Shown here: positions 4,514 to 19,838 of the stretch, in pieces
Layout: every line of letters begins with the position of its first letter
Numbering within the stretch: the first letter of the stretch is position 1
From: an uncultured Pelagibacteraceae bacterium
GTDB lineage: Bacteria; Pseudomonadota; Alphaproteobacteria; Pelagibacterales; Pelagibacteraceae
Direction: 5' to 3'
DNA length: 64,000 nucleotides
Assembly (NCBI GenBank): GCA_902540785.1
Contig: CACBOA010000001.1
Coordinates: 1-64,000 of the forward strand
Notes under the pieces: generated by a model
Told to the model about the DNA's origin: nothing
What the model saw: only the letters and a program-made list of their open reading frames with translations
Databases searched by the model: none
Program-made: the position numbers and the translations under genes

Positions 4514-5764
4514 ATGAAAATACCTCCATTTAAAGAATTAAATCCACCCAACTCTTTGGGTTATTGGACAAATAAAAAAACAGGGGAAAAATATGGAGGG
4601 CAATACATAAGCCCATTACTTATTCCTAACCTTAAAAAAGTAGAGTCTGGATTCAAAAAAGCCATGAAAAATAAAAAGTTTATATCAAACCTTGAGGAAC
4701 AGTTAGTAAATCATATTGGAATCGTTACACCAATTTTAAGAAGTAAAGAATTAGAGAATATGATTGGAGGAGAAAAAAAAATTGGAAAAATTTTTTTAAA
4801 AAGAACAGATTTACATCACGATAGTTCACATAAACCTGTTAGTGCTTTCAGCTCAGTATATTTTGCAAAACATATTCTAAAAGCAAAAAAAATTATAACA
4901 GAAACAGGAGCTTCGATGAATGCTCGAGCTGTTGCATCAGCCTGTGCTAAACTTGGTTTAGAATGCGAAGTTCATATAGGAGCTGTCGATGCTGAAAAAG
5001 TAAGTCTTAACAAAGATATAACAGAACTATATGGGGCAAAAATAATTGAATGTCATGACTCGACTAAGACTTTGTTACCAGCAATGGCAGCTGCACTTCG
5101 TAGTTGGCAAAGTGATCCATCTGCTATGTATGTAGTTGGATCATGTTGTGGACCACACCCTTATCCACTTATGGTGAGAACTTTTGCTAGTATTATTGGA
5201 AGAATTGCAAAAAAACAAATGCAAGAATTAACCGGAAAATTACCATCAACTGTATTTGCAGTATGCGGAGGTGGATCAAATCTTTCTGCAATTAGCTATC
5301 CATACTACAAAGAAAAAAAAGTACATATTTTTGGAATTGAGTCAGCAGGAAAAGGAATATCTTCTGGTGCTCATGCAGCAACAATCACTGGTAAGGCTCC
5401 TATAGGAATTTTATTAGGTGCACGTTCTAACGTTTTAATGGATGAGGATGGTCAAATAAATGAAAGCCATACCGAGGCATCAGGACTTGATTTCAGTGGA
5501 ACTGGTCCGGAAATTTGTTACATGGCAAGCACTGGAAAAATAAAATTTCGGGCAACTACTGATAAAGAGGCACAAGAAACCTTTTTAATGATGTGTAAAA
5601 AAACTGGTATCTTACCTGCTATAGAAGCTTGTTATGTTATTAATGCTGCACTTAAAGAAATTAAAAAAAGAAATAATCCAAGAGAAAATCATTTAATTCA
5701 TCTTTGTGGCTCAGGGGAATCAAATGTTGGAAGAATGTTAAAATACAAAAGAGATAATGAATAA
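4514..5764 (+). CDS. trpB: tryptophan synthase beta chain, divergent
   Basis: PLP enzyme that condenses indole with serine, 416 aa, directly before trpA. The fold is recognisable: YGGQY near residue 27, a Lys aligned with the Schiff-base lysine (K107 in SSHKP), the Glu of ETGA (E130), GPHPYP, the PLP-phosphate loop GGGSN, GLDFSGTGPE and PAIEA. Several near-invariant motifs differ: NHTGAHKIN is HHDSSHKPV, ETGAGQHG is ETGASMNA, GSVxGPHP is GSCCGPHP, and the serine that meets the PLP ring nitrogen (S-G-R-G-D) is cysteine (C398 in LCGSGES). It may be a fast-evolving TrpB or a shifted-specificity paralogue; the adjacent trpF and trpA favour TrpB. Confidence 0.82.
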   Translation: MKIPPFKELNPPNSLGYWTNKKTGEKYGGQYISPLLIPNLKKVESGFKKAMKNKKFISNLEEQLVNHIGIVTPILRSKELENMIGGEKKIGKIFLKRTDLHHDSSHKPVSAFSSVYFAKHILKAKKIITETGASMNARAVASACAKLGLECEVHIGAVDAEKVSLNKDITELYGAKIIECHDSTKTLLPAMAAALRSWQSDPSAMYVVGSCCGPHPYPLMVRTFASIIGRIAKKQMQELTGKLPSTVFAVCGGGSNLSAISYPYYKEKKVHIFGIESAGKGISSGAHAATITGKAPIGILLGARSNVLMDEDGQINESHTEASGLDFSGTGPEICYMASTGKIKFRATTDKEAQETFLMMCKKTGILPAIEACYVINAALKEIKKRNNPRENHLIHLCGSGESNVGRMLKYKRDNE

Positions 5765-6578
5765 AACTTTTCAAAAAGTGTTTGCAAAAGCAAAATCAGA
5801 AAATAGATCTTGTTTTGTCGCTTTTGTTACAGGTATGGATCCAGACTACGAGAGTTCTAAACAAATTTTGATAGAACTATCAAAGAATTGTGATGTAATT
5901 GAAGTTGGAGTAAGTTTTAATACCTCGACGTCAGATAGTTCAATTATAATGAGTGCAAATGATAGAGCAATAAGATCTGGGGCTAAAACTAAAAAAATAT
6001 TTCAACTTATTAAGGAGGTAAAAAGTGAAATAAATAGCGACACTGCATTTGTAACTATGGGATACTTAAATCAAATACATGTCTATGGAATAAATAAATA
6101 TATAAATGATTGTAAAAAAAGCGGAGTAGATGGATGTATAGTGGTTGATAGTAATAACGAGTCACCTGAAGATGATCAAATTTTTAAAGGCTTGACTAAA
6201 AATAACATGGCTTTTATTAAGTTAATTGCTCCAACTAATGACAGTAATTATATTAAAGAGAGTTTAAAAAAAAGTTCGTCTTGGCTATACATAGTTTCTT
6301 ACGCTGGAGTGACAGGATCTAAAGATGTAAATTTGGCTAATGTAAAAAAATTATCTAAGATGATCAGAAAACAATCGAAGATACCAATCGGTGTAGGATT
6401 CGGAGTCAAAAATTATGATGATGTAAAAAAAGTTTCTAAACTCGCTGATTTGGTTGTTTGTGGAAGCTCAATAGTTGAAAAAATTAAGGAAGGTAGTCAA
6501 AAAGGTCTATCTAATCAAAATTTAGCCCAATTTGTTGGAGAATATGTTAAAGTATTATCAGAAGGAGTAAAACATTGA
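5757..6578 (+). CDS. trpA: tryptophan synthase alpha chain, divergent
   Basis: Cleaves indole-glycerol phosphate and passes indole to TrpB; 273 aa TIM barrel. The two catalytic acids are present at canonical numbering, E49 in IEVGVSF and D60 in STSD, and the substrate-phosphate strand SYAGVTG is kept. The loop between the acids is rewritten: the usual PFSDPLADGP reads SFNTSTSDSS, and the subunit-contact motif (DLPPEE in typical enzymes) reads DSNNESPEDD. These changes parallel those in the adjacent TrpB, which suggests the pair co-evolved. It overlaps trpB by 8 bases and accD by 4. Confidence 0.84.
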   Translation: MNKTFQKVFAKAKSENRSCFVAFVTGMDPDYESSKQILIELSKNCDVIEVGVSFNTSTSDSSIIMSANDRAIRSGAKTKKIFQLIKEVKSEINSDTAFVTMGYLNQIHVYGINKYINDCKKSGVDGCIVVDSNNESPEDDQIFKGLTKNNMAFIKLIAPTNDSNYIKESLKKSSSWLYIVSYAGVTGSKDVNLANVKKLSKMIRKQSKIPIGVGFGVKNYDDVKKVSKLADLVVCGSSIVEKIKEGSQKGLSNQNLAQFVGEYVKVLSEGVKH

Positions 6579-7541: not shown

Positions 7542-8798
7542 ATGCTTACATCCGAGATTTACTACAATTCATTACAGAAGAAATATAGTCGTAAAATAAC
7601 TTTAGGATTATCAAGAATAAAAAAGGCTCTTTCCCTTCTGGGTAACCCTCATTTAGATCTTAAACGACCTTGTAATATTCTAGGTTCTGACGGAAAATTT
7701 AGTTGTCTTACCTCACTTAAATATTTTATTGAGGCAAATGGACAGACAACCACAACCTTCATAAGTCCTCACTTATATGACCTTCGCTCGAGAATATGGT
7801 TAAAAAATAGATACATATCTTTAAATGAAATAAAAAAGTACGAAAAACAAATAAGCAAATTAAAAATTAAATTAAGTTTATTTGAGGTATTAACTTTAAT
7901 ATATGTTTTGGCTGCTGCTAAATCAAAAAGTTCGTATAATCTCTTAGAGAGTGGTTTGCTATTCAAAAAAGACTCATCAAACCTCTTTAAAAAGCCTCTC
8001 TTTCAAGCTTGTACAAATATCAATAAACAGCATTTAGAGTGGATTTCACCAAAAACAATTAATGAAATATGTAAACAAAAAGTTGGTTACCTAAGTAATC
8101 AAACCCATATCTATATAGGTAAGCAAAGTCCAAAAACTTTAAAAATAATTCGACGAATATTAAAGAAAAACAAAAGTAACATTACCTACCCTTCTAATTG
8201 GAAAATAACTAGTAAAAAACAAGGCCTCTTTTATAAGGACAGTAAATATATTATTAGAATCAGATCAAATTATATTCATAGCAAAGGATTAATAGAAAAT
8301 TTGGGTCTAGCAATTAAAGTGGCTTTAGATTTAAATATCAAACCAAGTATAATTGAAAAAACTATTCCTAAAATATTTTTTGAGGGGAGATTGCAATATA
8401 TCAATAAAGGGAAATTAAGAAAATACGTTCACAAAAATGAGAGGATTTTATTAGATGGTGCACATTCAAATGCATCAGGTAGAAATCTTTACAATTACCT
8501 AAAAACATTAAAACAACCAATATATTGCATATGGGGGATGCAAAAAAATAAGTTTCCAAAAGATTTTTTAAAAAATTTCAAAGGAATTTTTAAAAAGATT
8601 GTAACTGTGAAAATACCCAATGAAAAAAATGCTTGTTCTGCAGAAGAGTTAAAATTTATTGCAGAAAAACAAAAATATAATGTTGAAAAAGCTATTAATT
8701 ATAAAGAAGCAATAAAAAAATTAACTTCAAGTAAGCCTAAAGTTATTTGTTTTTTAGGAAGTCTTTATTTTATAGGATCTGTATTAAAAGAAAATTAA
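7542..8798 (+). CDS. folC: folylpolyglutamate/dihydrofolate synthase, divergent
   Basis: Mur-ligase-type enzyme adding glutamate to dihydropteroate/folate, 418 aa. The N-terminus carries the usual LGNPH, then a P-loop GSDGKFS (residues 48-54; family GTNGKGS, Lys and Ser kept), SPHL at about 76 and a PGRLQ-like EGRLQ. The C-terminal domain has LDGAHSNASG where DGAHNPxGA is expected. The loop normally reading GLGGRLDATN is GLLFKKDSSN, and the IGLDH metal-site motif is hard to recognise (NINKQHLEWI). Synteny accD-folC-trxA supports the name. The stop overlaps the trxA stop by 4 bases, convergently. Confidence 0.82.
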   Translation: MLTSEIYYNSLQKKYSRKITLGLSRIKKALSLLGNPHLDLKRPCNILGSDGKFSCLTSLKYFIEANGQTTTTFISPHLYDLRSRIWLKNRYISLNEIKKYEKQISKLKIKLSLFEVLTLIYVLAAAKSKSSYNLLESGLLFKKDSSNLFKKPLFQACTNINKQHLEWISPKTINEICKQKVGYLSNQTHIYIGKQSPKTLKIIRRILKKNKSNITYPSNWKITSKKQGLFYKDSKYIIRIRSNYIHSKGLIENLGLAIKVALDLNIKPSIIEKTIPKIFFEGRLQYINKGKLRKYVHKNERILLDGAHSNASGRNLYNYLKTLKQPIYCIWGMQKNKFPKDFLKNFKGIFKKIVTVKIPNEKNACSAEELKFIAEKQKYNVEKAINYKEAIKKLTSSKPKVICFLGSLYFIGSVLKEN

Positions 8799-9112
8799 AT
8801 ATTTTTATCTAAAAATTCTTTCATATGACTTTCAGGAACCCCACCAACTTTCCTATCTATTTCGACACCTTTTTTATAAATAATAACTGTGGGAACGCCA
8901 CGAATACCAGCAAATGAACCTGTATTTATTCCTGAGTCTTCAATGTCAGTAATATAAAAATTTGCACGATCTTTGTATTCATCAGATAATTTATCCATAA
9001 CAGGTTTCAAAGTCTTACAAGGTGAGCACCATGACGCTGAGAATTGGATTACAGAAATATCTTCTTTTTTAATTTTGTTTTCAAAATCTTCATCTTTAAA
9101 TTCAATAAGCAT
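8795..9112 (-). CDS. trxA: thioredoxin
   Basis: Small cytoplasmic dithiol protein, 105 aa, with the complete thioredoxin fold. The active site is WCSPCK (residues 28-33), with Ser in place of the common Gly, and the cis-proline loop is GVPTVIIYKKG. No signal peptide is visible, so it acts in the cytoplasm. In many alphaproteobacteria trxA stands between folC and addA/addB; here the genes on its upstream side are the unrelated nuclease island. The ATG at 9112 follows an AT-rich gap of about 100 bases that can hold its promoter. Confidence 0.93.
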   Translation of the reverse strand: MLIEFKDEDFENKIKKEDISVIQFSASWCSPCKTLKPVMDKLSDEYKDRANFYITDIEDSGINTGSFAGIRGVPTVIIYKKGVEIDRKVGGVPESHMKEFLDKNI

Positions 9113-9209: not shown

Positions 9210-9680
9210 TTAGGATTTTTTTAATTTTTCTAGTTTTGAGGATCTTTTTTCTTCTAAAATTCTTCTCACCAACTTTCTATTACAGGGTACCCCTAATAAT
9301 TTTGAAACTTTAGTTGCAATTGAAGTTTTTGACTCTTCTTTATTTTCTGCTTCATCAAATATTTGCAGAATCTTCTTTTCTTTTTTTTTAACAAGTTCTA
9401 ATCCTAGAACACTGTTATTATTATACATTAAACTTAGTCTTATTTGTTCTATCTTTGTGTCTGTAGGTATTTTATAGGCGGTTGGAGTAGAACCACCTGA
9501 ACCTTCACGCTTAAACTTAACCATTTGAATACCATGATTTTCACAAAATCTAGGTAAATTATCTTTTCTTTTTACAAAAATTTTTTTTCTTTTAAAAAAT
9601 TCAAATATTTGATCAGTGTCATAAAAACCTTCTGGCTTCTCATCACGAGTTTTTCCGAGCTTATATTTGTCTTTATCCAT
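9210..9680 (-). CDS. hypothetical protein, last gene of the nuclease/helicase operon
   Basis: Not recognised. A basic protein of 156 aa rich in Lys and Glu, with no signal peptide or membrane segment. The middle (KFKREGSGGSTPTAYKIP) looks like a turn-rich strand region, and the C-terminal 60 residues are predicted helical (TSIATKVSKLLGVPC, then a Lys/Glu-rich tail), which could be a small DNA- or partner-binding module. I chose the ATG at 9680 rather than the in-frame TTG at 9695 because AGGA stands 8 bases before the ATG. It lies 29 bases after the helicase gene on the same strand and is probably co-transcribed with it. Confidence 0.6.
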   Translation of the reverse strand: MDKDKYKLGKTRDEKPEGFYDTDQIFEFFKRKKIFVKRKDNLPRFCENHGIQMVKFKREGSGGSTPTAYKIPTDTKIEQIRLSLMYNNNSVLGLELVKKKEKKILQIFDEAENKEESKTSIATKVSKLLGVPCNRKLVRRILEEKRSSKLEKLKKS

Positions 9681-9709
9681 CAATAAAATCCTCAATTAAT
9701 CTTATATAA

Positions 9710-12700
9710 TTATGCTGCATATTTCATTAATTTTTGAAAATAATTCATTAGCTTAAATTCCTCATAATCATTAGGTGCTGACTCTAATAATTTTGGATTA
9801 AGCAAAATAACTGATGAACATTGGGCTCTTGAGATTGCAACATTAAGTCGATTTCGATTAAAGAAAAATTTTTTATTTCTCGGGAGATCGTCGACTGAAG
9901 AACTTGTCATACTTATAATTGTTATAGGTGCCTCCATTCCTTGAAATTTATCTATTGTCCCACATCGAGCTCCTTTATTTAATCTTGCTTTCAAAAAATT
10001 TACCTGAGCATTAAACGGGCTTACGATTAAAATGTCATCTATACATATTTTCCTCTCAGTTTTATCAAAATCAATAAACTTACAGCCCATGACCTGATCC
10101 ATGATTTTTTTTATAATTTCAAACTCCTCAATACTTGTTTGTGATCTGTCTTGGTGTTTCATTAGTACTGTATGTATGCCCTCATTTTTAATAATACTAT
10201 TTTTTTTGTACTCGATTTTTCTATTAATATTATTTTCATTTACCAATAATCTATTTTCGTAAAAATTTTCAGAGGTAAACAAATTAATGTTTGGATGAAG
10301 CCTAAAAGTTTTATTTAAAAAAATACCCTTCTCTGGAGAAATGGTATCGCTGTCTTCTAATAAATAATCTAAAACTGATTTTCCAGAGTCATTTGGATGA
10401 CTTCCTTGTGTTGGCTGACCAAGTTGTTGCTGATCTCCAACTAGAATAATATTTTTTGCAATTCCTCCTAAAGCAATTAAATCTGCAACAGAAATTTGAG
10501 AAGCCTCATCTACAAAAAGATAATCTAATTTATTTTGATAATACCATTGAGATAAATGATATTTTGTTCCTGCATAAAGTAAAATTTTATTATCTTTTAA
10601 CCCGTCAATGTAATGTTTTTCGTTTTTATCAGTTTTAATCAAATTTCCATTGTAGAATGTATCCTCATTATCTGGATTACCCATTTTCAATCCTTTAAAT
10701 ACATAATTCTGATTATTAGCTAAATTTTCCACTCGCTCTAAAAGATTATGAATTACTTTATGGGAATTAGCTGTTACAGCAATTTTTTTATTATTTTTAA
10801 GTAATTCAATTATAGCATTGCTTGCTTGAAATGTTTTCCCAGAGCCAGCTGGACCTTGCAGATAAAGATATGAATTTTGTAAATTTAAAATGATTTTTGG
10901 AATTTCATCTTTAAAGTTTTCTGTTTTAATTATTTTTTCTCCTCTTTTAATTCCTTTTATTTTAGGAGTATATCTATTAATAAAATCTTTGATTGCATTA
11001 TATCCATCTTTTTTTTCCAAAAAGTTGTCACAAAATCTATAAATATTTTTATTTAAATTTTCAAAACGAGCATGTTCCATGACTTTTTCACCAATAGATA
11101 AAATTTTTGGTAATTGCTTGTCCTCTTTGGAGACTCCTTTTCTAAGTAAAAGTGATCGTTTAATTTGATCTAATTCTTGAATTTTACCCGCATAATCACT
11201 TCTTTCTGGATCTGTATTATTTGCAATTATGCATGTTCTTCCCTCTTTAAGTTTATATTCTTGCTCTGGAAAAATATATTTGTAAAGAAGTGATCTTTTG
11301 TCTTTAAAGACTGATACAAGTTTCATATTTCCTATACATTCTCTATCGTCCATAAGATCACTATCTGATAAATCTTTTCTATCGAAATGCTGTCGCCATT
11401 GTGGTTTTTGTTCTCTATTATAAAAACCAATTACATCTGAAAGTAATTTTGAAATTTTATTATGTTTTGATTTAAAATTTTCAAATTTCTTTTGATATTC
11501 CAATAAAGATTCTTCAAAAGGTCTTAGTTCTATTTTTTCTTTTTCAGGGACAAACCATTTTGTTTGCTTGGGTTTTATTCGCAATAGCCATTTTCTAAGT
11601 CTAAAAGTAGACTCACAATCTTGTTTATTATAATCCTCAATCTTATCTAAAAGTCTCTTATCATTATTATGCATCCATTGAATATAAAATTCCTCAGATA
11701 CATCTCCTTTTAGAATTTCACCCGTTCTTTTAAAATCGTAATACTTTTCAATATCTTTAATAGAATAACTTTTTTGGGATACGTATATGCCTTGTTTGAC
11801 TACTCTAAATAAATCTACGAATTTTCCAAGGTTTAAATAATGATCATAATCTACTCCGTGAACTTTATGTATTGAGGTTAATCTTTCTAAAGCAGTGATT
11901 TCATATGGTGCGTAATGATAAATTTTTGCCTTTGGATATTTTTTAAAATGAACTTTTGTAAATTCAAAAAATTTAATTAAACTTTGTTTTTCCTCTTCTC
12001 TACTGTGTGCCCAAAATGGTTTGAAAACTTTCTTTTCATTTTCTTCATAAAAAATACCAAATAAGTATTCTAATCGTCCAGAATAAACATAATCTTGTAC
12101 ACCTTCTAGGTCGAAAAAAAGATCACCCGGAGCTGGTTCAGGTAAAAGATTAAACCCTTTATTTAAAGCGAAATTTTCCTCCACAAATTTGAACTTAATT
12201 ACTCCTTCTGTGTGTGCATCTATTTGTAATTTTGCTTGATTGATTAACTTAATTTTTGTCTCATCTTTTAAACCTTCAATTTTTTTTTTTGGATCTAATT
12301 TTGAAAGCTCCGTAAAGTTTTTTATACCAGCCTCATTCAATCTTTTAATATTATTTTTATTGTTTCCTAATACTTGATTTAAATGCTTTTTATTTGTCCA
12401 TTCTTTTTCACAAAAAATTTGTAAATCTCTAAGAGAACAATTGCTTACTTTTTCTAATTTTTTTCTATTTAAATCATTCTTTGCAAAATTCTCAAAAGAT
12501 AATTTTTGTTCTAAAAAAATATCATATACCTCACTAAGCCTAACCATTTCTTTTTTTTTATCTTTTAATAAAATATAAAAGTTTTTAGGAAGAATTCCTT
12601 GAGCTTCTTTAAGTAGAAAGGAATATAAACTTATTTGATAAATATGATCTTTTTTTACTTTTGCACTATTTTTAGTGTCAATAATTTCATAACTCCAATC

Positions 12701-13069
12701 ACCAAAATTAGATTTGACAGTTTTATTAATTTCTAGAAAGTCTAGTTCTCCTCTCCAATTTCCTGATGCTAACCACCCTCCATAAACTAGTTCATATCCA
12801 TTTTTTAAAGCTTGAATTGTTTCTTTAATTTTTTCTTCTTTGGATAAATCTTTTAACTTTTTGATATTTTTTACTTTTTTATATTTTTTGGTTAACTCTT
12901 TAAAATATTCTTTTTCATGAATTAGACCCTTTTCTAACCTTAAATTTTCTGCGATTGTTCTCTCTGATCTTTTTAAGTTTAAAATTTCATCACCGAATTC
13001 ATCTGTAATGAAATGCTTTAAATTAACGTAATTTACAAGCATTGTAGGTGAATAGAAATTTTTATCCAT
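9710..13069 (-). CDS. RecB-like nuclease / RNase H-like / SF1 helicase fusion (TM0106-type)
   Basis: A 1119 aa three-part DNA-processing enzyme. (1) An N-terminal PD-(D/E)XK domain of RecB/TM0106 type, with GELDF near residue 106, IIDTKNS near 130 and a following QISLYSFLL helix. (2) A central RNase H-like exonuclease domain, with FFDLEGVQDY near 320 and YNKQDCESTFRLRKW near 480. (3) A C-terminal SF1 helicase, with Walker A GPAGSGKT near 740, DEASQIS near 855 (motif II) and NVAISRAQCS near 1080 (motif VI). Such fusions belong to the Dna2/UPF1-like superfamily and are thought to resect or unwind DNA or RNA ends; the exact role is not established. It sits downstream of rmuC with a 56-base gap, next to trxA where addAB often lies. 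Confidence 0.85.
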   Translation of the reverse strand: MDKNFYSPTMLVNYVNLKHFITDEFGDEILNLKRSERTIAENLRLEKGLIHEKEYFKELTKKYKKVKNIKKLKDLSKEEKIKETIQALKNGYELVYGGWLASGNWRGELDFLEINKTVKSNFGDWSYEIIDTKNSAKVKKDHIYQISLYSFLLKEAQGILPKNFYILLKDKKKEMVRLSEVYDIFLEQKLSFENFAKNDLNRKKLEKVSNCSLRDLQIFCEKEWTNKKHLNQVLGNNKNNIKRLNEAGIKNFTELSKLDPKKKIEGLKDETKIKLINQAKLQIDAHTEGVIKFKFVEENFALNKGFNLLPEPAPGDLFFDLEGVQDYVYSGRLEYLFGIFYEENEKKVFKPFWAHSREEEKQSLIKFFEFTKVHFKKYPKAKIYHYAPYEITALERLTSIHKVHGVDYDHYLNLGKFVDLFRVVKQGIYVSQKSYSIKDIEKYYDFKRTGEILKGDVSEEFYIQWMHNNDKRLLDKIEDYNKQDCESTFRLRKWLLRIKPKQTKWFVPEKEKIELRPFEESLLEYQKKFENFKSKHNKISKLLSDVIGFYNREQKPQWRQHFDRKDLSDSDLMDDRECIGNMKLVSVFKDKRSLLYKYIFPEQEYKLKEGRTCIIANNTDPERSDYAGKIQELDQIKRSLLLRKGVSKEDKQLPKILSIGEKVMEHARFENLNKNIYRFCDNFLEKKDGYNAIKDFINRYTPKIKGIKRGEKIIKTENFKDEIPKIILNLQNSYLYLQGPAGSGKTFQASNAIIELLKNNKKIAVTANSHKVIHNLLERVENLANNQNYVFKGLKMGNPDNEDTFYNGNLIKTDKNEKHYIDGLKDNKILLYAGTKYHLSQWYYQNKLDYLFVDEASQISVADLIALGGIAKNIILVGDQQQLGQPTQGSHPNDSGKSVLDYLLEDSDTISPEKGIFLNKTFRLHPNINLFTSENFYENRLLVNENNINRKIEYKKNSIIKNEGIHTVLMKHQDRSQTSIEEFEIIKKIMDQVMGCKFIDFDKTERKICIDDILIVSPFNAQVNFLKARLNKGARCGTIDKFQGMEAPITIISMTSSSVDDLPRNKKFFFNRNRLNVAISRAQCSSVILLNPKLLESAPNDYEEFKLMNYFQKLMKYAA

Positions 13070-13125
13070 TAATACTCATCTTTTATAATTAACCAGCCTT
13101 GGAATGATTACTTATAGGTTTAAAG

Positions 13126-14307
13126 TTAATTTAATTGATCTTTATTTTCATCCTCAATTTTGTTTTTTACATCTTCAAATTCCATCAATTTATCTTGTAC
13201 GGGGGTAGTTTTTTTAATTGGAGTTTTTGATCTTATTCCATGATCTCGAAGTTTTTCTATTCTCTGTTCTAAACTATTCCTACCAGCATAAATTCCATTT
13301 ATTACTTTTTTTAAATTTTCACCATGAGAGTTAAAACTGTTCATTGTTCTAATTAGATTTTCTTTAATTATGGAATATTTCTCCATTAAATTGCTGGCAA
13401 CATTAGTTATCTCATTAACACTATTTATTTGTTTCTCTTTATCTCTAATAGTTTGAACTATTGATATTACGGCAAGTATATTTTTGGGGCCACAAAGTAA
13501 AATATCTTTATTGTATGCATACTCATAAAGCTCAGGATCTTTTTCTAATGCTGATAGATAAGCAGCTTCATGACACATGAACATTATTACTTTTTGAAAT
13601 ACTTGTTTCTTTAAATTTTTAACATAATCTCTTTCGGCTAAATCATCGATATGTTTCACAACTGCATCGTAATGTTTATTAAATTGGTCTTTTTTAACTT
13701 CATCATTCTCTGCATTAACAAATTTTTTAAAATTATCTAAACTTACTTTTGAGTCACAAATTATATGAAAGTTGCCTAAATTTAATACAATATCAGGTTT
13801 CGTTGTTTTAGATCTATCTTCTTCAACATCGTAAACCTCTTCTTTTTTTTGTTTTGTATAATCAATACCTAGTTTAAATCCTGCAAAATTTAATATTTGT
13901 TCAAGGAATTTCTCACCAAAATCTCCTTGATATTTTGCGTTTCCAGTCAACTTATCTATGAATTTTTGTTGCTTCTCAATCATTTGTGAATACTCACCCA
14001 TATTAGTAGTCACTGAAGTTTTAAAGGCGTCAACTTTTCCTAATGTCTCAAGTTGTTTAGAAGTGGTCTCCCTCTCTTTCATCAACGTTTCATTAAGATT
14101 ATTTTTTTCTATTAAAACACTATTCAGTTTTTCGTTTAGTATTTTTAAATCACTTTCATGCTGAAGTTTAATCAAATCTAACTCATGTTCTTTATTTTTG
14201 ATTTCGTCAACGTATTGCGAAGAGTCCTTTTTTTTAACAAATTTAGAATACACAATTCCTAGCGCTAAAATAACTGCTGCAGTAATTAATATAGTCAAAA
14301 TATCCAT
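13126..14307 (-). CDS. rmuC: RmuC-family DNA recombination protein
   Basis: RmuC homologue of 393 aa. RmuC proteins limit inversions and rearrangements at short repeats and have a nuclease-like core. The first 24 residues are a membrane anchor (ILTILITAAVILALGIVYSKF). A long coiled coil follows to about residue 110 (many Lys/Glu/Leu, SQMIEKQQKFIDKL), then the RmuC domain with GDFGEKFLEQIL, KPDIVLNLG and HIICDSKVSLDNF, the last being the restriction-endonuclease-like D-x-K site. It lies in one operon with two small genes upstream and the helicase downstream (spacings 13 and 56 bases). Confidence 0.88.
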   Translation of the reverse strand: MDILTILITAAVILALGIVYSKFVKKKDSSQYVDEIKNKEHELDLIKLQHESDLKILNEKLNSVLIEKNNLNETLMKERETTSKQLETLGKVDAFKTSVTTNMGEYSQMIEKQQKFIDKLTGNAKYQGDFGEKFLEQILNFAGFKLGIDYTKQKKEEVYDVEEDRSKTTKPDIVLNLGNFHIICDSKVSLDNFKKFVNAENDEVKKDQFNKHYDAVVKHIDDLAERDYVKNLKKQVFQKVIMFMCHEAAYLSALEKDPELYEYAYNKDILLCGPKNILAVISIVQTIRDKEKQINSVNEITNVASNLMEKYSIIKENLIRTMNSFNSHGENLKKVINGIYAGRNSLEQRIEKLRDHGIRSKTPIKKTTPVQDKLMEFEDVKNKIEDENKDQLN

Positions 14308-14320
14308 TTAAATGATTCCT

Positions 14321-14695
14321 CTATTGTATTGTATTATTTGATGCATCTAATTTCAACTCAGGTGATTTTTCACTCAAATATTTAGACATATTTTCAGTAA
14401 CCTCATTCGTAGAAGATTTATCGGCTGCTTTAAATAGAGGATATGAAACTCTATGTATTGTTCTTTGTTTTAAGTGAAATAAGAAATGATAATATGTCAT
14501 ATCGGTATCCATTTTACATTCTGTAACATACTGATCAATTTCATCGCACAATTTTCGTGCAAATATATTTGTTCTTTCACGTTCTTGTTCTTCTAAAGTT
14601 AACAAGTTTTCAGTATTTTCTGATTGAACAAGATCTCTTTTCAAAGGAACTACATTTGATGATTTCTTTTTGTTAGTTTTCTTCATTTTAGGCAT
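14321..14695 (-). CDS. hypothetical protein upstream of rmuC
   Basis: Not recognised. 124 aa; the first 25 residues are very basic (MPKMKKTNKKK, KRD) and could touch nucleic acid, the middle is helical and acidic (LTLEEQERERTNIFARKLCDEID), and the tail is Ser/Asn-rich and probably disordered. AGGAG stands 7 bases before the ATG at 14695, which decides the start. It lies 2 bases after the preceding gene's stop and 13 bases before rmuC, so it belongs to the same operon. No catalytic motif is visible. Confidence 0.6.
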   Translation of the reverse strand: MPKMKKTNKKKSSNVVPLKRDLVQSENTENLLTLEEQERERTNIFARKLCDEIDQYVTECKMDTDMTYYHFLFHLKQRTIHRVSYPLFKAADKSSTNEVTENMSKYLSEKSPELKLDASNNTIQ

Positions 14696-14697
14696 TT

Positions 14698-14997
14698 TTA
14701 ACTCCTATTATTGATTTGTTTTTTGTTGTATTTGTTTATTTCTTCCTCGAGCACCTCAATCTCACTTAAAACTCTGTTATATTCAGAGTACTCATTGATT
14801 TTTACTAGGAAGTTAATGATCGCTGTTGGAAGATTAATTATACTGTAAGTTGTAGACAAAAGAATATTTCTATTAAATCTTCTTTTAAAAGCTTCCTCTT
14901 TTAATGACTTAAATCGCAGATAGTTATTCTGGTATTTCAACCAGTCCTTTCTACTCAAAAGACAACGCCTTAAAATATAATAAAATTCATCTCTCAT
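14698..14997 (-). CDS. hypothetical small protein, first gene of the minus-strand operon
   Basis: Not recognised. 99 aa with a basic N-terminal third (YYILRRCLLSRKDWLKYQ), a hydrophobic middle (LLSTTYSIINLPTAIINFLV, residues 46-65) that could dip into or cross the membrane, and a coiled-coil-like C-terminus (LSEIEVLEEEINKYNKK). GGAG stands 7 bases before the ATG at 14997. It is the first gene transcribed leftwards from the divergent region that holds the twin palindromes, so it is probably controlled by the repressor encoded on the other side. Confidence 0.5.
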   Translation of the reverse strand: MRDEFYYILRRCLLSRKDWLKYQNNYLRFKSLKEEAFKRRFNRNILLSTTYSIINLPTAIINFLVKINEYSEYNRVLSEIEVLEEEINKYNKKQINNRS

Positions 14998-15121
14998 TAG
15001 CTGTCTCCATCAAATTGAAAATTGAGCTCAATAACCTCCTAGAAAGAAAGGAGAATGATAAAGAAAAGGTTAAAGAACCCAATTTCAATTGTTTAAACAT
15101 AAAAACAATATATACAATAAT

Positions 15122-15138
15122 CACTTTTTTGTAAAGTG
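15122..15138. promoter_or_regulatory. palindromic operator 1 in the divergent region
   Basis: Perfect dyad CACTTT-N5-AAAGTG between the leftward small-gene/rmuC/helicase operon and the rightward repressor gene. It overlaps the proposed -35 of the repressor promoter. A second copy with the same half-sites and spacer lies 42 bp downstream, about four helical turns, so dimers on both sites would face the same side of the DNA. This is the arrangement expected for autoregulation by the adjacent LexA-fold repressor; the pairing is inferred. Confidence 0.6.
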
Positions 15139-15157
15139 TTTTTTATAAAAAAATAAT
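15129..15157 (+). promoter_or_regulatory. candidate promoter of the repressor-exonuclease pair
   Basis: TTGTAA (15129-15134), 17-base spacer, AATAAT (15152-15157). Transcription would start near 15164 and give a leader of about 29 bases before the ATG at 15193. The two palindromes flank it exactly, one over the -35 and one over the start point. A later TATATA near 15183 would put the start inside the codon region and is less likely. Confidence 0.4.
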
Positions 15158-15163
15158 ATTGAT

Positions 15164-15180
15164 CACTTCATAAAAAAGTA
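15164..15180. promoter_or_regulatory. palindromic operator 2 in the divergent region
   Basis: CACTTC-N5-AAAGTA, the same 6-5-6 architecture as the site at 15122 with one mismatch between the arms. It covers the predicted transcription start of the repressor gene. Two sites of equal design in under 60 bp are unlikely by chance even at this AT content, but the assignment to the neighbouring repressor is inference. Confidence 0.55.
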
Positions 15181-15192
15181 TATATATAAAGT

Positions 15193-16332
15193 ATGAATCG
15201 GCAAGTAAAATCAACAATAAATGAGGCTTCTAAGGATTTATTGCTTAAATTATTGAGGTCCGCAAGACTAACAAAGGTCCAAAGTAAGATTTATTTAGGA
15301 AAACATAGACATTCTTTAGATACATATCTTTACAGATTTTTTGAGCCTAATTTTCCTCCAAGTTTTGCTTATTTTTTTTTAAATGCAATTGCTTCATCAA
15401 GGCCTCTCTCAAAAAATAGTAAAAGTAAATCAAAAAAATACGCTTTTCTTGATGATCTTAAAAATGCTGAAAAAAATAGTTTTCACAAAATTATTGAAAA
15501 ATATAAAGATTTTAACATTAATCAAAAGCTAATTTTACCTTGTTTAGAATACCACTGCACTATTCACATTAAGCTATCAAATTCAAAATTTATACATGAT
15601 GAAGAGAATTATGTTAAACGATATGTCGACGAAGTTCTACCAGGATTAAGAGAAGAGGTTGAAGAACTTAAAAATTATCAACCAGATGAACCGGAGACAT
15701 ATGATAATCTTTCTGAGGTAATGAGACTTTTAGATGCACAAACATTAATAGAGTCTATTGAAGACTTTTACCCCCATTTGGAAATTTTAAGAAAAAAATA
15801 TATGCCTAATTTTGTTGCTCCAAATGAGACTTTTAAATTACCAGTGGTTAATTCTAATGAAAAAATACTGTTCTCAAAAGATTTTGTAAAAAGAAATCTA
15901 AATTTAAATAAATATGATGATCTTATTTTATTAAATGTAAGTGAAGATAATATGCATGGTACGATAAACTCTGGCGACATCGCTTTAATAATTAAATTTC
16001 ACAATAAAAAATTTAAAGATGTAGTTTTTAATAATGGTATTTATGCAATCAATCTAAATGGAAGAATTTGCATAAGAAGACTTCAATTTCTAAAGTTAAA
16101 ACAAAGAACTCTTGTTCATATAATATCAGATAATAAAAAATATAGAGATGATGCAATAGATTTTGTTGAATTGATTCCGATGATTTATGGTGAAGTGGTG
16201 TGGAGATCTAATAATTTTAAAGATATCGAGTTTCTTAAACATGAAACGACAGAGCCAAATTTATTTGGTGAAAAAGCAGAAGATTTTGAAGTTCCACTAT
16301 TCATCGATAAAGACAAAAAAGAAATTGCATGA
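15193..16332 (+). CDS. LexA/S24-fold transcriptional repressor lacking the protease dyad
   Basis: 379 aa. Residues 15-50 form a helix-turn-helix-like segment (ARLTKVQSKIYLGKHRHSLD). A long helical linker follows. Residues 225-340 match the LexA/phage-repressor C-terminal domain: LLNVSEDNMHGTINSGD, IYAINLNGRICIRRLQ, HIISDNKKY and IYGEVVW. The nucleophile serine of GDSM is Asn (N253) and the general-base lysine before RL is Arg (R295), so RecA-stimulated self-cleavage should not work; induction would need another signal. It stands beside two palindromes in its own promoter and overlaps the exonuclease gene by ATGA. No Shine-Dalgarno is visible, and no internal ATG gives a better start. Confidence 0.72.
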   Translation: MNRQVKSTINEASKDLLLKLLRSARLTKVQSKIYLGKHRHSLDTYLYRFFEPNFPPSFAYFFLNAIASSRPLSKNSKSKSKKYAFLDDLKNAEKNSFHKIIEKYKDFNINQKLILPCLEYHCTIHIKLSNSKFIHDEENYVKRYVDEVLPGLREEVEELKNYQPDEPETYDNLSEVMRLLDAQTLIESIEDFYPHLEILRKKYMPNFVAPNETFKLPVVNSNEKILFSKDFVKRNLNLNKYDDLILLNVSEDNMHGTINSGDIALIIKFHNKKFKDVVFNNGIYAINLNGRICIRRLQFLKLKQRTLVHIISDNKKYRDDAIDFVELIPMIYGEVVWRSNNFKDIEFLKHETTEPNLFGEKAEDFEVPLFIDKDKKEIA

Positions 16333-17777
16333 TGTCAAAACCAAATTTCATATTTTTTGATACAGAAACAAGCGGTGGAAGAGGTTTAGCAGATATATTA
16401 ACTATCGATGCTATTTTCTATGATTATAATTTTAATAAATTGGATGAGTTTAATTGTAAAGCAAAATTAAGAAAATCAAGAGTGTATGAGGTAGACAGTT
16501 TTTTGGTTAATGGAATAGATCCATTTGAAATGGATAAATGGTCTAATACAAATTTTGACTTAACAAAACAAACAAATGAAAAATTTATCTCTTGGATAAA
16601 TAAAGGTGATGTGTTCTTTTGTGCACATAATGGTTATAATTTTGATTATATGCTTACAAGTCAGCATTTGTTTTCAAATTTATTTACCTGGCCATGGATT
16701 TTTTCTACAGGAAATGCTAGACAATTAGACTCTCTTCCGATAGTCCAAAACTTCGATTTTTATGCGCCAAATAAAATTTCATTTGAATTAAATGAAAAAA
16801 ATAACAAAGTTTATCGTCTCGGATCGCTTGCAAAAGCTAATGGATTTGAAATAAAGGATTTACATAGTTCAAAAGGAGATACTGAGGGTTTAGTGCGTTT
16901 AATGAACTTATTAAAAGAAAAAGATCCAGGTTTATTTAGACAATCACTTAGTTTTACAAATAAGAAAGATGTTTTAAGTAAAATTGAAAATACCGATTAT
17001 TTTTGTCATCCAGAAACGTTCTATAGTCGTACTAGACAATTCACATCAACATATTTATGTGAACATCCGATTTATAAAGGCTATCATCTTGTATTTGATT
17101 TGAAGCATGATCCGGAATTAATTTTTTCTGAAAAATCTAATACTGTATTAAAAAAAACACTTTCTGCTGCTCCAAAGAAATATAGGACTATTAAAATTGG
17201 AAAGAATCCATTCATTCAAGATAAATCTTTTGCAACTAAATTTGATGATGAATACTCCACTTTGGGACACGAAATACTTAAAAAAAGAGCTGACTTTATA
17301 ATCAAAAATAGAAAAGAATTAGCTAATAGGGTGAGTTTAATCATCAGTGACCAGTTTGAAGATAATTCAATTGATCAAACCGAGCTAATACCTGAACAAA
17401 TGATATTTAATCTAAATCCGTCATCAAATGACAAATCATTAATGAATGATTTTGTTATGACTAATAACAAAGATGAACAGAAAAAAATTCACAAAAGATT
17501 TAATGGTCCACTTAAACATTTATCAGAAATGGTCTTACTGGATAAGTGGGGTAAAGACGGTTTTGATAGTAATGAAGAATATAAAAAAGTTCGAAAAAAT
17601 ATAAGTCGTAGATTGCTTTCCACTAATAAAGAGGTTTTTCCAACTATACCTGATGGCATGGCGCGTATTGATGTTTTAAGAGAGGAAAAAAAAGATGATA
17701 AAGAAGTTTTAGAAAAAGTTGAAACAATCAACTCCCATTTAGAGAAATTAGCATCCGAGCATGAAAACTATTTATAA
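16329..17777 (+). CDS. ExoI-like DEDDh 3'-5' exonuclease
   Basis: 482 aa protein resembling exonuclease I (SbcB), which degrades single-stranded DNA from 3' ends and works with recombination repair. The exonuclease core shows all five catalytic positions: D11 and E13 in FFDTETSG, D106 in AHNGYNFDYML, and H179/D184 in the H-x4-D motif HSSKGD. The remaining 290 residues are compatible with the SH3-like and helical parts of ExoI, but weakly conserved; the C-terminus is a charged coiled coil. Translation is coupled to the repressor by an ATGA overlap, so the two are regulated together. I give no symbol because homology beyond the nuclease domain is uncertain. Confidence 0.75.
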   Translation: MMSKPNFIFFDTETSGGRGLADILTIDAIFYDYNFNKLDEFNCKAKLRKSRVYEVDSFLVNGIDPFEMDKWSNTNFDLTKQTNEKFISWINKGDVFFCAHNGYNFDYMLTSQHLFSNLFTWPWIFSTGNARQLDSLPIVQNFDFYAPNKISFELNEKNNKVYRLGSLAKANGFEIKDLHSSKGDTEGLVRLMNLLKEKDPGLFRQSLSFTNKKDVLSKIENTDYFCHPETFYSRTRQFTSTYLCEHPIYKGYHLVFDLKHDPELIFSEKSNTVLKKTLSAAPKKYRTIKIGKNPFIQDKSFATKFDDEYSTLGHEILKKRADFIIKNRKELANRVSLIISDQFEDNSIDQTELIPEQMIFNLNPSSNDKSLMNDFVMTNNKDEQKKIHKRFNGPLKHLSEMVLLDKWGKDGFDSNEEYKKVRKNISRRLLSTNKEVFPTIPDGMARIDVLREEKKDDKEVLEKVETINSHLEKLASEHENYL

Positions 17778-17779
17778 TT

Positions 17780-18487
17780 TTAATTCTCTCTTTTTAAATT
17801 GTAATATTGCTCTACTCTGTTCATTGCTTCCTTTTTTAATTTTTCGAACTCCTGGTCTTTAAATTCAAACTTTTGGAATATTAAATTTGGTGTGCACATT
17901 AAAATTTCCGTTGATTTAATCTTGGTTCCAAACATATTGTCGTGAGCAATTGAATATAATGCTAATTGAAGTCCATACTCATTTATCACAGAATACTCTC
18001 TTTTTTTTGGCTTATTAGATTGTTTAAAGTCTAAAATTTTGATTTCATTATCTGAAGAATTTATTACCGCATCAGCAGTACCAGCAAACTTTAAATTTCC
18101 ATCATAATACAACACAGCTTCACACCCATAAACTTCGCTGATTTGATTATTTATTCCGTTGTCCACAATTGTTTCTGCCATTTTTTTTGGTAAATTAACT
18201 TCTTCCAATAATTCTCCATTCATTTTATTTAACAAAATTGACTCTAAGTATTGGTGAAGAGTAGTTCCCCTTTCTGAACTCTGTTTAGAAATTATTGCTG
18301 CCTCCTTAAACCCAATATCCTTTTTCCATCTATTGAGGGCATCCTTATCCTCTTGACTCTTAGTTTCTGCAAGTATGTTTGTTACACTTGGATACTTATC
18401 TCCCCCTACATCATAATGTCTGGATCCCTTATAAATAGATCTCATTGATTTTGGATAAGTAAACTTATTATTTATTTTCCATGGCAT
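17780..18487 (-). CDS. PD-(D/E)XK exonuclease, MGME1/RecB-like
   Basis: 235 aa single-domain nuclease. PSVTNIL (33-39), ERGTTLHQYLE (72-82), E123, GTADAV with D139, ILDFKQS (D153-x-K155) and YGLQLALYS (Q174, Y178) are the ordered motifs of the RecB-like family that includes mitochondrial MGME1 and phage exonucleases. These act on single-stranded ends or flaps. It faces the ExoI-like gene tail to tail with only 2 bases between stops and is divergent from the next HTH gene across 42 bases. It is a plausible partner of the helicase in end processing (inferred), or an old phage acquisition. Confidence 0.72.
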   Translation of the reverse strand: MPWKINNKFTYPKSMRSIYKGSRHYDVGGDKYPSVTNILAETKSQEDKDALNRWKKDIGFKEAAIISKQSSERGTTLHQYLESILLNKMNGELLEEVNLPKKMAETIVDNGINNQISEVYGCEAVLYYDGNLKFAGTADAVINSSDNEIKILDFKQSNKPKKREYSVINEYGLQLALYSIAHDNMFGTKIKSTEILMCTPNLIFQKFEFKDQEFEKLKKEAMNRVEQYYNLKREN

Positions 18488-18529
18488 CTATTTATTTCTA
18501 TACCAAAAGTATATAAAATATTAAGTTAA

Positions 18530-19045
18530 ATGAGTAAAAAGAAAGAAATTAAAAAAACAACTTCTAATATAACTCCAAGGGTTGAAAAAAGAATAATAGA
18601 ACTACATCAAAAAAATAAATTAGGTGCACAAGCTATCGCTGATAATTTATCAAAGGAATTTACTATTAAATTTAGTAGAGCGCCTATCGGTAAAAGATTA
18701 ACTAAACTAAAAAAAGAGGGAAAAATTAAAGCTATCCCATACAAAGAAAGACAGGCTTCAAAAAATATGAGGGGACAATATTATGGAAAAAAAAGAAACA
18801 CCTATTTAGATATAAGGCCTATTACAGATATAGATAGAAAGACTCGTGATTTATCAACAGGTAAGCTTAAATATAATATTCCTATTGATGCGAAATTTAA
18901 GATCGATTTTAAAAATCCCACAGCGAGTGGTGCAATCACAACAAAAATACCAAAAGAGTTTTTAGGTATTCAATATTTTAGAACAAAGAAAGATGCTATA
19001 AGGGCAATCACTAAAAACCTTAAAAGAATTAATAATGATAATTGA
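18530..19045 (+). CDS. hypothetical protein with helix-turn-helix-like N-terminus
   Basis: 171 aa, strongly basic. Residues 14-58 (VEKRIIELHQKNKLGAQAIA to GKRLTKLKKEG) read like a resolvase- or winged-helix-type DNA-binding unit. The C-terminal half is unrecognised (PITDIDRKTRDLSTGKLKYN, then FRTKKDAIRAITKNLKR). No nuclease or catalytic motif is seen. It is divergent from the PD-(D/E)XK exonuclease across 42 bases; the intergenic region contains AAAAGTATATA (18505-18515), also present beside the repressor start, which may hint at shared control. Confidence 0.55.
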   Translation: MSKKKEIKKTTSNITPRVEKRIIELHQKNKLGAQAIADNLSKEFTIKFSRAPIGKRLTKLKKEGKIKAIPYKERQASKNMRGQYYGKKRNTYLDIRPITDIDRKTRDLSTGKLKYNIPIDAKFKIDFKNPTASGAITTKIPKEFLGIQYFRTKKDAIRAITKNLKRINNDN

Positions 19046-19154
19046 AGTTCTTATAATTATAGCTTTAATGATCAGTATTTATACAATAATAAGAAATCTA
19101 GATATAATTAGAATTATTTTAAATTATTGGAAAGATTTAATTTTTAGAAAGTAA
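19035..19154 (+). CDS. possible 39-aa membrane peptide
   Basis: Short ORF starting 11 bases before the stop of the preceding HTH gene, an overlap suggesting coupled translation. The peptide has one hydrophobic helix (VLIIIALMISIYTII, residues 5-19) followed by a basic tail. Its 3' end overlaps the hisG 3' end by 18 bases on the other strand. At this AT content a hydrophobic ORF of 39 codons can arise by chance, so only the overlap supports it. Confidence 0.3.
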   Translation: MIIEVLIIIALMISIYTIIRNLDIIRIILNYWKDLIFRK

Positions 19155-19838
19155 TTTTACAAATTTTTTAACTTCTCTTTTTTTAATAGAATTCTTATTA
19201 GAGCATAAAATAGCTGATGAATTTAATATTACTCCATCATCTTCTAATAACTTCAAATTATTTGCTTTTGCAGTATCAAAGCTAGTTGCAACGTCTACTA
19301 CTAAATCAGCTTTTCCCAATCTTGGAGCCGCCTCGGTCGCACCCTCACTGCCAATTATTTCTACCATATTAATTCCACGTGATTTACACCATTGCTCTGT
19401 TAGAAGTTTAAACTTGGTTGCTATTCTCATTAATCTCTTCTTTTTATAAAAAAATTCCCATGAAACCTCCTCAAGATCTGTAGGATTTACAGTATCCAAC
19501 CAAAATTTAGGTAGTAATACACAAAGTTGACATTGGCCAAACTCATATTTTTTTTCAATTGATATTCTTGATTGTATATTTGGTTCTGAGTTTTTAAGTA
19601 AATCAAGTGCACCTATACCAGCATCAAGCACTCCTGTTCCAACAGATTCAATTATTTCCTTAGGACTCAAAAACCATATACGTACATTTTGAAATTTTTT
19701 ATCTTTAATATAACCAAATAAGTCTCTTTCACCTGATTTTTTATAAATTTTTAATTTATTTTTTTTAAATATCTTTTGCGCACTTTCCATCATTCGTCCT
19801 TTAGAAATTAAACCAATATTTATAAAATCACTTTTCAT
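19137..19838 (-). CDS. hisG: ATP phosphoribosyltransferase catalytic subunit, short form
   Basis: First enzyme of histidine synthesis; joins ATP and PRPP. 233 aa is the short HisG form, which needs the HisZ regulatory subunit encoded immediately upstream. Visible are GLISKGRMM at the N-terminus, GTGVLDAGIGALDLL, the FGQCQLCV strand, and the PRPP-binding stretch GSEGATEAAPRLGKADLVVD. ILNSSAILCSN ends the domain as expected. It overlaps hisZ by 4 bases. Short HisG enzymes receive histidine feedback through HisZ, since they lack the C-terminal regulatory domain. Confidence 0.93.
   Translation of the reverse strand: MKSDFINIGLISKGRMMESAQKIFKKNKLKIYKKSGERDLFGYIKDKKFQNVRIWFLSPKEIIESVGTGVLDAGIGALDLLKNSEPNIQSRISIEKKYEFGQCQLCVLLPKFWLDTVNPTDLEEVSWEFFYKKKRLMRIATKFKLLTEQWCKSRGINMVEIIGSEGATEAAPRLGKADLVVDVATSFDTAKANNLKLLEDDGVILNSSAILCSNKNSIKKREVKKFVKLLSKN

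Follow-up and report, generated by a model that had tools for sequence, protein, structure and literature searches.

The DNA analysed here, a window of 64,000 nucleotides from an uncultured Pelagibacteraceae bacterium of the SAR11 lineage, carries between its trxA and hisG genes a slot of nine genes according to the list of open reading frames (ORFs), among them those of RmuC, of ExoI (an SbcB-type exodeoxyribonuclease I) and of MGME (an MGME1-like nuclease). We hypothesize that in SAR11 this slot holds a core module for DNA-end processing which stands in place of addB and addA, with the roles divided among its members as proposed below, and we lean towards this reading as the probable one. 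Its parts differ in strength. For two families, f9 and f62 (genomes, loci and families are referred to by our handles G, L and f), there is strong support that ExoI replaced AddAB at one and the same place, and positional replacement of AddAB by an ExoI-based nuclease set is well supported in SAR11; that this set does AddAB's work can reasonably be inferred. The original prediction for this stretch had proposed that an island of genes, among them a helicase fusion (HEL), could act in place of AddAB or form a defence system. The absence of AddAB and RecC and the linked, conserved nucleases beside trxA bear out the first part of that proposal, but HEL does not belong to the core.

The place of addAB and its occupation by ExoI

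The original prediction was built on the premise that in Alphaproteobacteria addAB comes before trxA, and this holds: in 19 of 20 AddB-bearing loci trxA is located downstream of addA within ~220 bp, the exception being G120 with 4.6 kb. On the upstream side, 16 of the 20 loci have a nucleotidyltransferase gene no more than 120 bp from addB, 2 more have tsaE at such a distance, and in one further locus the fetched stretch stops there. The sample consists of 18 of the strongest addB matches together with G282, which also has ExoI, and G120, which comes from the family of G220. In G068 the order reads tsaE, phosphotransferase, nucleotidyltransferase, addB, addA, trxA, folC. In the AddAB-less families f9 (3 of 3 loci) and f62 (1 of 1) it reads tsaE, phosphotransferase, nucleotidyltransferase, ExoI, trxA, folC, and ExoI alone thus fills the addB-addA position gene for gene. 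The AddAB-less family f41 (2 of 2 loci) shows tsaE, ExoI, trxA, folC; its ExoI matches are weak (E-values of 1e-11 to 1e-14), yet the frames of ~440 aa adjoin trxA. Within the window's order, family f2 (3 loci) has ExoI-RmuC-trxA, and G143, from another genus of f1, has RmuC-ExoI-trxA. The surroundings of ExoI were compared in 13 of the 16 AddB-less genomes that have it (all except G205, G264 and G345), and 10 of the 13, the window counted, place it in the slot and 3 elsewhere.

With an alphaproteobacterial AddB model, no AddB was found in any of the 61 genomes of the window's genus and order, whereas the same model matched 268 of 289 Alphaproteobacteria genomes, 237 of them over the cut-off; among 14 controls it gave a match in 5, one over the cut-off. 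For AddA, the listed matches comprise only UvrD-sized frames of 678-755 aa, in nine genomes of the genus or order and in G235, G311 and G143. As to AdnAB, the AddA models gave only UvrD-sized frames in the order, and no dedicated AdnAB search was made. RecC was absent from 30 of 30 genomes, 25 of which are AddB-less or of the window's order (2 of 14 controls matched, E. coli and B. subtilis, one over the cut-off). The AddB and RecC results agree with passages of PMC12374537 that describe SAR11 as being without RecBCD. Because the window's own assembly of 933 kb is only ~81% complete, absences were judged from its relatives. Of the two outcomes that the original prediction had named as adverse to it, a complete AddAB or RecBCD elsewhere did not turn up in these searches, and ExoI, MGME and RmuC are not scattered but linked and conserved beside trxA.

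The association extends to the class as a whole. ExoI is present in 29 of the 289 genomes, in 16 of 21 AddB-less versus 13 of 268 AddB-bearing ones (Fisher 1.5e-14, a value that ignores kinship). The 21 AddB-less genomes are a count, of which 20 are listed by name, and the remaining one is deduced to be G345. When the 20 were searched for AddA, 18 showed only UvrD-sized frames, the exceptions being an AddA fragment in G100 and an AddA-like frame in G147, and 15 of these 18 have ExoI. Among the 13 AddB-bearing genomes with ExoI, three have weak or fragmentary matches (G241, G246, G343). The positions of the two were compared in six: five have ExoI on a contig other than that of AddAB (G334, G234, G302, G136, G252; as these are drafts, this is weak evidence of distance), and in G282 ExoI lies ~82 kb from addA.

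Several observations weigh against the replacement of AddAB by this set. The genes upstream in the SAR11 slot differ from those in the other families, gene-for-gene replacement being confined to f9 and f62. In f27 (2 loci) and f122 (1 locus), 3 of the 13 surroundings, ExoI lies away from trxA, and ExoI gave no match in the three AddAB-less genomes G102, G152 and G204. The window's ExoI is only ~22-34% identical to other ExoI over full-length matches. According to passages of PMC1193525, E. coli SbcB blocks RecFOR break repair when RecBCD is missing, and the 2005 survey given there reports that SbcB accompanies RecBCD or AddAB, with only one bacterium that lacks them having SbcB; the association found here is opposite in sign to that trend. 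Moreover, a five-gene unrooted tree of 24 loci splits 15 ExoI loci from 9 AddAB loci with a support of 100. A single ancestral event, transfer or a bias of composition may lie behind this split, and because the ExoI loci group together, the Fisher value overstates their independence. The ExoI-bearing AddAB-less lineages are small-genome groups, and may go back to a common ancestor or to a single loss.

Could AddAB simply have been lost and the gap been filled by ExoI, with ExoI, RmuC and MGME serving housekeeping functions unrelated to double-strand ends? ExoI lacks a helicase and is unable on its own to carry out the task of AddAB, for which it would need one. The two AddAB-less families that carry ExoI elsewhere also fit such neutral occupancy. 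On the other hand, the association between ExoI and the absence of AddAB holds in the class wherever ExoI sits, and three unrelated nuclease families are clustered at one place. We consider neutral occupancy distinctly unlikely.

A side observation concerns f62. In locus L223 of G120, a distance of 4.6 kb that holds other frames separates AddAB from trxA, and the family-mate G220 has ExoI in the slot. A regain of AddAB or an insertion is possible in G120. The five-gene tree separates G220 from G120, although the collection labels them as one family.

The core genes RmuC, ExoI and MGME

The window's genus has the core order hisG-RmuC-MGME-ExoI-trxA. In the window, these genes are located as follows (position 1 is the first letter of the window).

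8795 to 9112, minus strand: trxA, thioredoxin, left border of the slot (Pfam Thioredoxin, E = 1.4e-21)
13126 to 14307, minus strand: RmuC, expanded-allele form, 393 aa (Pfam RmuC, E = 4.9e-48)
16329 to 17777, plus strand: ExoI, SbcB-type exodeoxyribonuclease I (NF008746, E = 2.3e-23, 82.6 bits; PDB 1fxx, 2.9e-9)
17780 to 18487, minus strand: MGME, MGME1-like RecB-type PD-(D/E)XK nuclease (PDDEXK_1; phrog_298, 1.5e-41; profile against MGME1, 1.5e-16)
19137 to 19838, minus strand: hisG, slot border on the right within the genus (synteny; 48 of 61 relatives have a homologue)

A genome scan with an MGME alignment gave 586 confirmed matches, of which the best 80 form our named SAR11 loci. All 80 are titled Pelagibacteraceae, Pelagibacterales or Candidatus Pelagibacter, the top one being 99% identical in MGME. 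RmuC, MGME and ExoI are adjacent and run in the same direction, with no called gene between them, in 72 of the 80 loci, and the MGME and ExoI genes overlap in 25 of 74. Among the other genomes of the genus, 24 of 26 carry MGME in their slot stretches; the exceptions are G022 and G013, whose contig stops before that point.

The window's RmuC scores 164.2 bits against a Pfam cut-off of 26, and a core copy scores 159.8. By our own reading of the motif, the variant RmuC of the window has Asp-Ser-Lys where two core copies (L044:13098-14153 and L045:15358-16449) have Asp-Ser-His; the core copies may be catalytically altered. The window's ExoI stays under the curated NF008746 cut-off of 260 bits, and is for this reason named SbcB-type and not SbcB; its Exonuc_X-T_C domain exceeds the Pfam cut-off (31.4 vs. 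27). The residues D11, E13, D106, H179 and D184, which we take to be the DEDDh motif, are invariant in 11 of 11 alignment rows, and ExoI is predicted to be a 3'-to-5' exonuclease of single-stranded DNA. The ExoI proteins of the window and of G022 form a clade of their own (100/100), apart from other SAR11 ExoI.

When compared with the PDB, the SAR11 MGME profile matched only MGME1 entries at E<=0.001, the best at the value given above. The residues H78, D139, D153 and K155 and the motif Q174hxxY178 are kept, and are invariant in 15 of 15 alignment rows. The QhXXY motif of MGME1 is described in passages of PMC6237815, which also report that human MGME1 cuts single-stranded DNA from either end in vitro; by analogy, SAR11 MGME would be expected to do the same.

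MGME has its closest affinity to phage. In a tree of 58 rows, the 20 SAR11 rows cluster as one clade (100/100) in the midst of marine viral contigs and the pelagiphage HTVC027P, and the window's variant MGME stands inside this clade on a long branch. For this tree, sequences were taken from 17 of the 80 named SAR11 loci and, out of 80 viral loci, from 30, after one of 31 chosen had been discarded because of a stop codon. Since the 80 viral loci comprise the best of 518 confirmed matches, the sample leans to close relatives. ExoI, RmuC and trxA had no match in any of the 80 viral MGME stretches, and for this reason these stretches look unlike a misfiled chromosomal slot. SAR11 MGME was probably a single capture from marine phage, as judged from the sequences.

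We also considered MGME as a general alphaproteobacterial gene, and rejected this because only 7 of the 289 class genomes match; the strong matches among these are 4, namely G333 and three genomes from the genus of the window. G333 has two near-identical copies (L116:9336-10040 and L123:376-1080), and the copy that was checked stands among phage-like genes for a tail spike, a ribonucleotide reductase and a virion protein. The G333 MGME groups with jumbo-phage sequences, a join flagged by the tree program as a meeting of long branches, and its stretch is probably a phage contig in the assembly. Because of these neighbours and this grouping it was left out as a cellular gene, which leaves the window's genus as the sole one where a cellular MGME was observed.

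We looked for RecJ in 9 of the 39 genus members with handles. It was undetected in 7 of them, including the single-contig G235, whereas 33 of 35 other genomes gave a match (Fisher 3e-5, again ignoring kinship). MGME may thus also cover RecJ's role. Three points tell against these additions to our reading. The direction of transfer from phage to SAR11 would follow from a tree that is rooted at the midpoint only. G311 and G012 carry both MGME and RecJ (the latter just under the model cut-off), so the gain of MGME may have preceded the loss of RecJ. G022 is without RecJ and without a recognised MGME in its slot, where another PDDEXK gene is found; because neither is present, it does not fit a simple exchange of RecJ for MGME unless that other gene serves.

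Cargo genes and the rare allele of the window

The remaining features of the slot are listed below.

9210 to 9695, minus strand: s161, small conserved protein of the expanded allele (homologues in G022, G012, L126 and L128)
9710 to 13069, minus strand: HEL, TM0106-type fusion of RecB-like nuclease, RNase H-like domain and SF1 helicase, optional accessory (TIGR03491, E = 2.7e-69; IGHMBP2 family, 4.9e-26; RNase_H_2)
14321 to 14695, minus strand: s124, small protein of the expanded allele (homologues in L124 to L128, G022 and G012 (adjoining ExoI))
14698 to 14997, minus strand: s99, small protein of the expanded allele (relative directly before HEL in G010)
14998 to 15192, no strand: divergent intergenic region between s99 and S24, 195 bp, with presumed promoters (gene layout; aligned in 4 loci)
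15193 to 16332, plus strand: S24, LexA/CI-fold regulator-like protein (Peptidase_S24, E = 9.1e-8; CI-like repressor phrog_6201, 4.4e-13)
18530 to 19045, plus strand: s171, small gene at the hisG border (in L124 and L125 among the five variant loci)

All genes that the original prediction had named between trxA and hisG are present as ORFs at their positions, and its domain assignments for the island proteins are upheld by family profile matches. What it had taken for a single gene set consists instead of core genes and optional cargo. The S24 and ExoI genes overlap by 4 bases on the plus strand, and MGME faces ExoI from the minus strand. Scans with domain, phage-family and defence-model profiles gave no family match for s161, s124, s99 and s171. 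The G+C content of the island is similar to that of its surroundings.

The variant arrangement of the window (MGME, ExoI reversed, S24, s99, s124, RmuC) occurs in 5 of the 80 named loci, L124 to L128, where the gene order is kept although the identity of S24 falls to ~50%. Next to RmuC, HEL follows in L124, L125 and L127 (fetched stretch ends inside HEL); L126 and L128, in which the stretches extend to trxA, lack HEL and have s161 in this place. In G022 the arrangement is altered, HEL standing between folC and trxA, and the other PDDEXK gene is part of it; G012 has relatives of s161 and s124.

S24 had been described as a LexA-fold repressor, and the domain match supports the S24 part of that description. 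The Ser/Lys pair, presumably the catalytic motif of LexA-type peptidases, is replaced by Asn/Arg (N253, R296) in all 6 copies of the alignment, a set in which three resemble one another at 94-100%, and therefore a LexA-type self-cleavage switch is unlikely. The N-terminal part of S24 had no family match in the domain and phage-family scans, and the predicted structure (mean pLDDT 54.5) was too poor for a fold search. For s161 (pLDDT 72.6), the top fold matches were winged-helix regulators, none at E<=0.001, and a DNA-binding role is our guess. The alignment of the s99-S24 intergenic region from 4 loci identified no operator.

HEL is a clear member of its family (234.3 bits vs. a curated TIGR03491 cut-off of 97.45), but its distribution does not support a role at the core of the replacement. 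It occurs in 4 of 61 relatives, the window's own genome included, and in 3 of the 80 named loci, where it was sought within the fetched stretch, and it is missing from 2 of the 5 variant loci. Two distant relatives (L040:4990-11888 and L041:8543-19252) stand near a C5 cytosine methylase gene, accompanied by AIPR in G038 and by a Z1-domain helicase in G010; in the latter, an s99-like gene directly precedes HEL. HEL as a substitute for AddAB was rejected on these counts and on the restriction-type neighbours, and because of the neighbours in G038 and G010 it reads as a defence-type passenger.

Would the whole slot then be an anti-phage hotspot, in which the window's set degrades phage DNA under the control of S24? 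The slot does attract such genes, with Dnd/Pbe-type genes in G012 and genes for HerA and an AAA ATPase in G003 and G004, in each case between the core genes and hisG. The neighbours of the HEL relatives are of the same kind, PADLOC models for RmuC and SbcB proteins associated with reverse transcriptases match RmuC and ExoI, and the variant ExoI and RmuC are strongly diverged. However, the RmuC-MGME-ExoI core of the genus, adjacent in nine tenths of the named loci, is unlike patchy defence genes, and PADLOC models recognised only single proteins and domains, and no complete known defence system, in the window's island. A defence island is thus, in our opinion, unlikely. In the single-contig G012 (L067, L056), the cargo between MGME and hisG amounts to ~29 kb.

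A degraded prophage or another mobile element inserted by trxA would account for the resemblance of MGME and S24 to phage proteins and for the grouping of MGME with viral sequences. However, the island proteins gave no match to capsid, integrase or transposase in the domain and phage-family scans, in line with what the original prediction had noted, scans of viral contigs with S24 and s161 confirmed no relatives, and the variant gene order persists in five named loci in spite of the divergence of S24. We have rejected a prophage remnant on the first two grounds, and an insertion of this kind is very improbable; vertical inheritance with conservation, which would speak against it, is for the most part evident already.

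Proposed mechanism, known systems and the neighbouring trpBA genes

We propose that in SAR11 the AddAB-free slot set shares ExoI, together with RmuC, as its common members, to which the window's genus would add MGME, a predicted single-strand nuclease acting on either end. A helicase, for which UvrD is a candidate, would open broken or linear DNA, and the separate nucleases would then trim or remove both strands. MGME would take over RecJ's role at 5' ends, and the loading of RecA would be left to RecO and RecR. In the rare allele, the S24-fold regulator would form an apparent operon with ExoI, and s99, s124 and s161 would belong to a divergent operon with RmuC, which HEL may have entered in some strains as a defence-type passenger. 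More tentatively, and with greater doubt, SAR11 and other streamlined Alphaproteobacteria might process breaks without AddAB by means of separate nucleases in its place, centred on an SbcB-type ExoI, with phage MGME having allowed the loss of RecJ in SAR11, and with the set in some strains under a non-self-cleaving S24 regulator.

In comparison to AddAB, RecBCD and AdnAB, the SAR11 module fills the place of addB and addA beside trxA (and folC), and, as in AddA, a nuclease of RecB type is present in MGME and in the N-terminal domain of HEL. Unlike AddAB, the set consists of separate small nucleases without a homologue of AddA or AddB, and the core trio is without a helicase. SAR11 ExoI resembles E. 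coli ExoI (SbcB) in its family match and DEDDh residues, but the window's copy scores under the family cut-off, and the SAR11 type is found mainly in AddAB-less genomes and is linked to RmuC and MGME. Similarly, SAR11 MGME has the same catalytic motifs as MGME1, including QhXXY, but is a bacterial protein of ~230 aa beside ExoI and RmuC whose nearest relatives are of phage or viral origin. Like TM0106-type proteins (TIGR03491), HEL shows matches to the nuclease, to an RNase H-like domain and to an SF1 helicase; unlike these, it is inserted in some copies of the SAR11 nuclease module. S24 has the C-terminal S24 match of LexA/CI repressors, from which it differs by Asn/Arg in place of Ser/Lys.

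SAR11 is among the most abundant bacteria, and passages of PMC12374537 report that it recombines widely and that some subclades are without RecF. Judged by titles and the openings of abstracts, none of the publications among the matches listed describes an ExoI-RmuC-MGME module in SAR11. The module provides concrete candidates for DNA-end processing in SAR11, and is relevant to the idea that genomes without RecBCD or AddAB lack SbcB as well. A bacterial MGME1-type nuclease also offers a comparison for mitochondrial DNA turnover. If the more tentative reading is true, the use of MGME for RecJ in these bacteria would have a counterpart in mitochondria, where a nuclease of MGME1 type is likewise used, and AddAB-free repair would be built on an enzyme that blocks repair in E. 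coli without RecBCD.

Outside the slot, trpB and trpA of the window (4514-6578) are 88-89% identical to those of G017 (L066), but only ~27-38% identical to their counterparts in the majority of other genus members. The genes that neighbour trpBA are often more alike between genomes of the genus than trpBA is itself, and two forms of trpBA seem, from these identities, to have been exchanged at one place in the genus.

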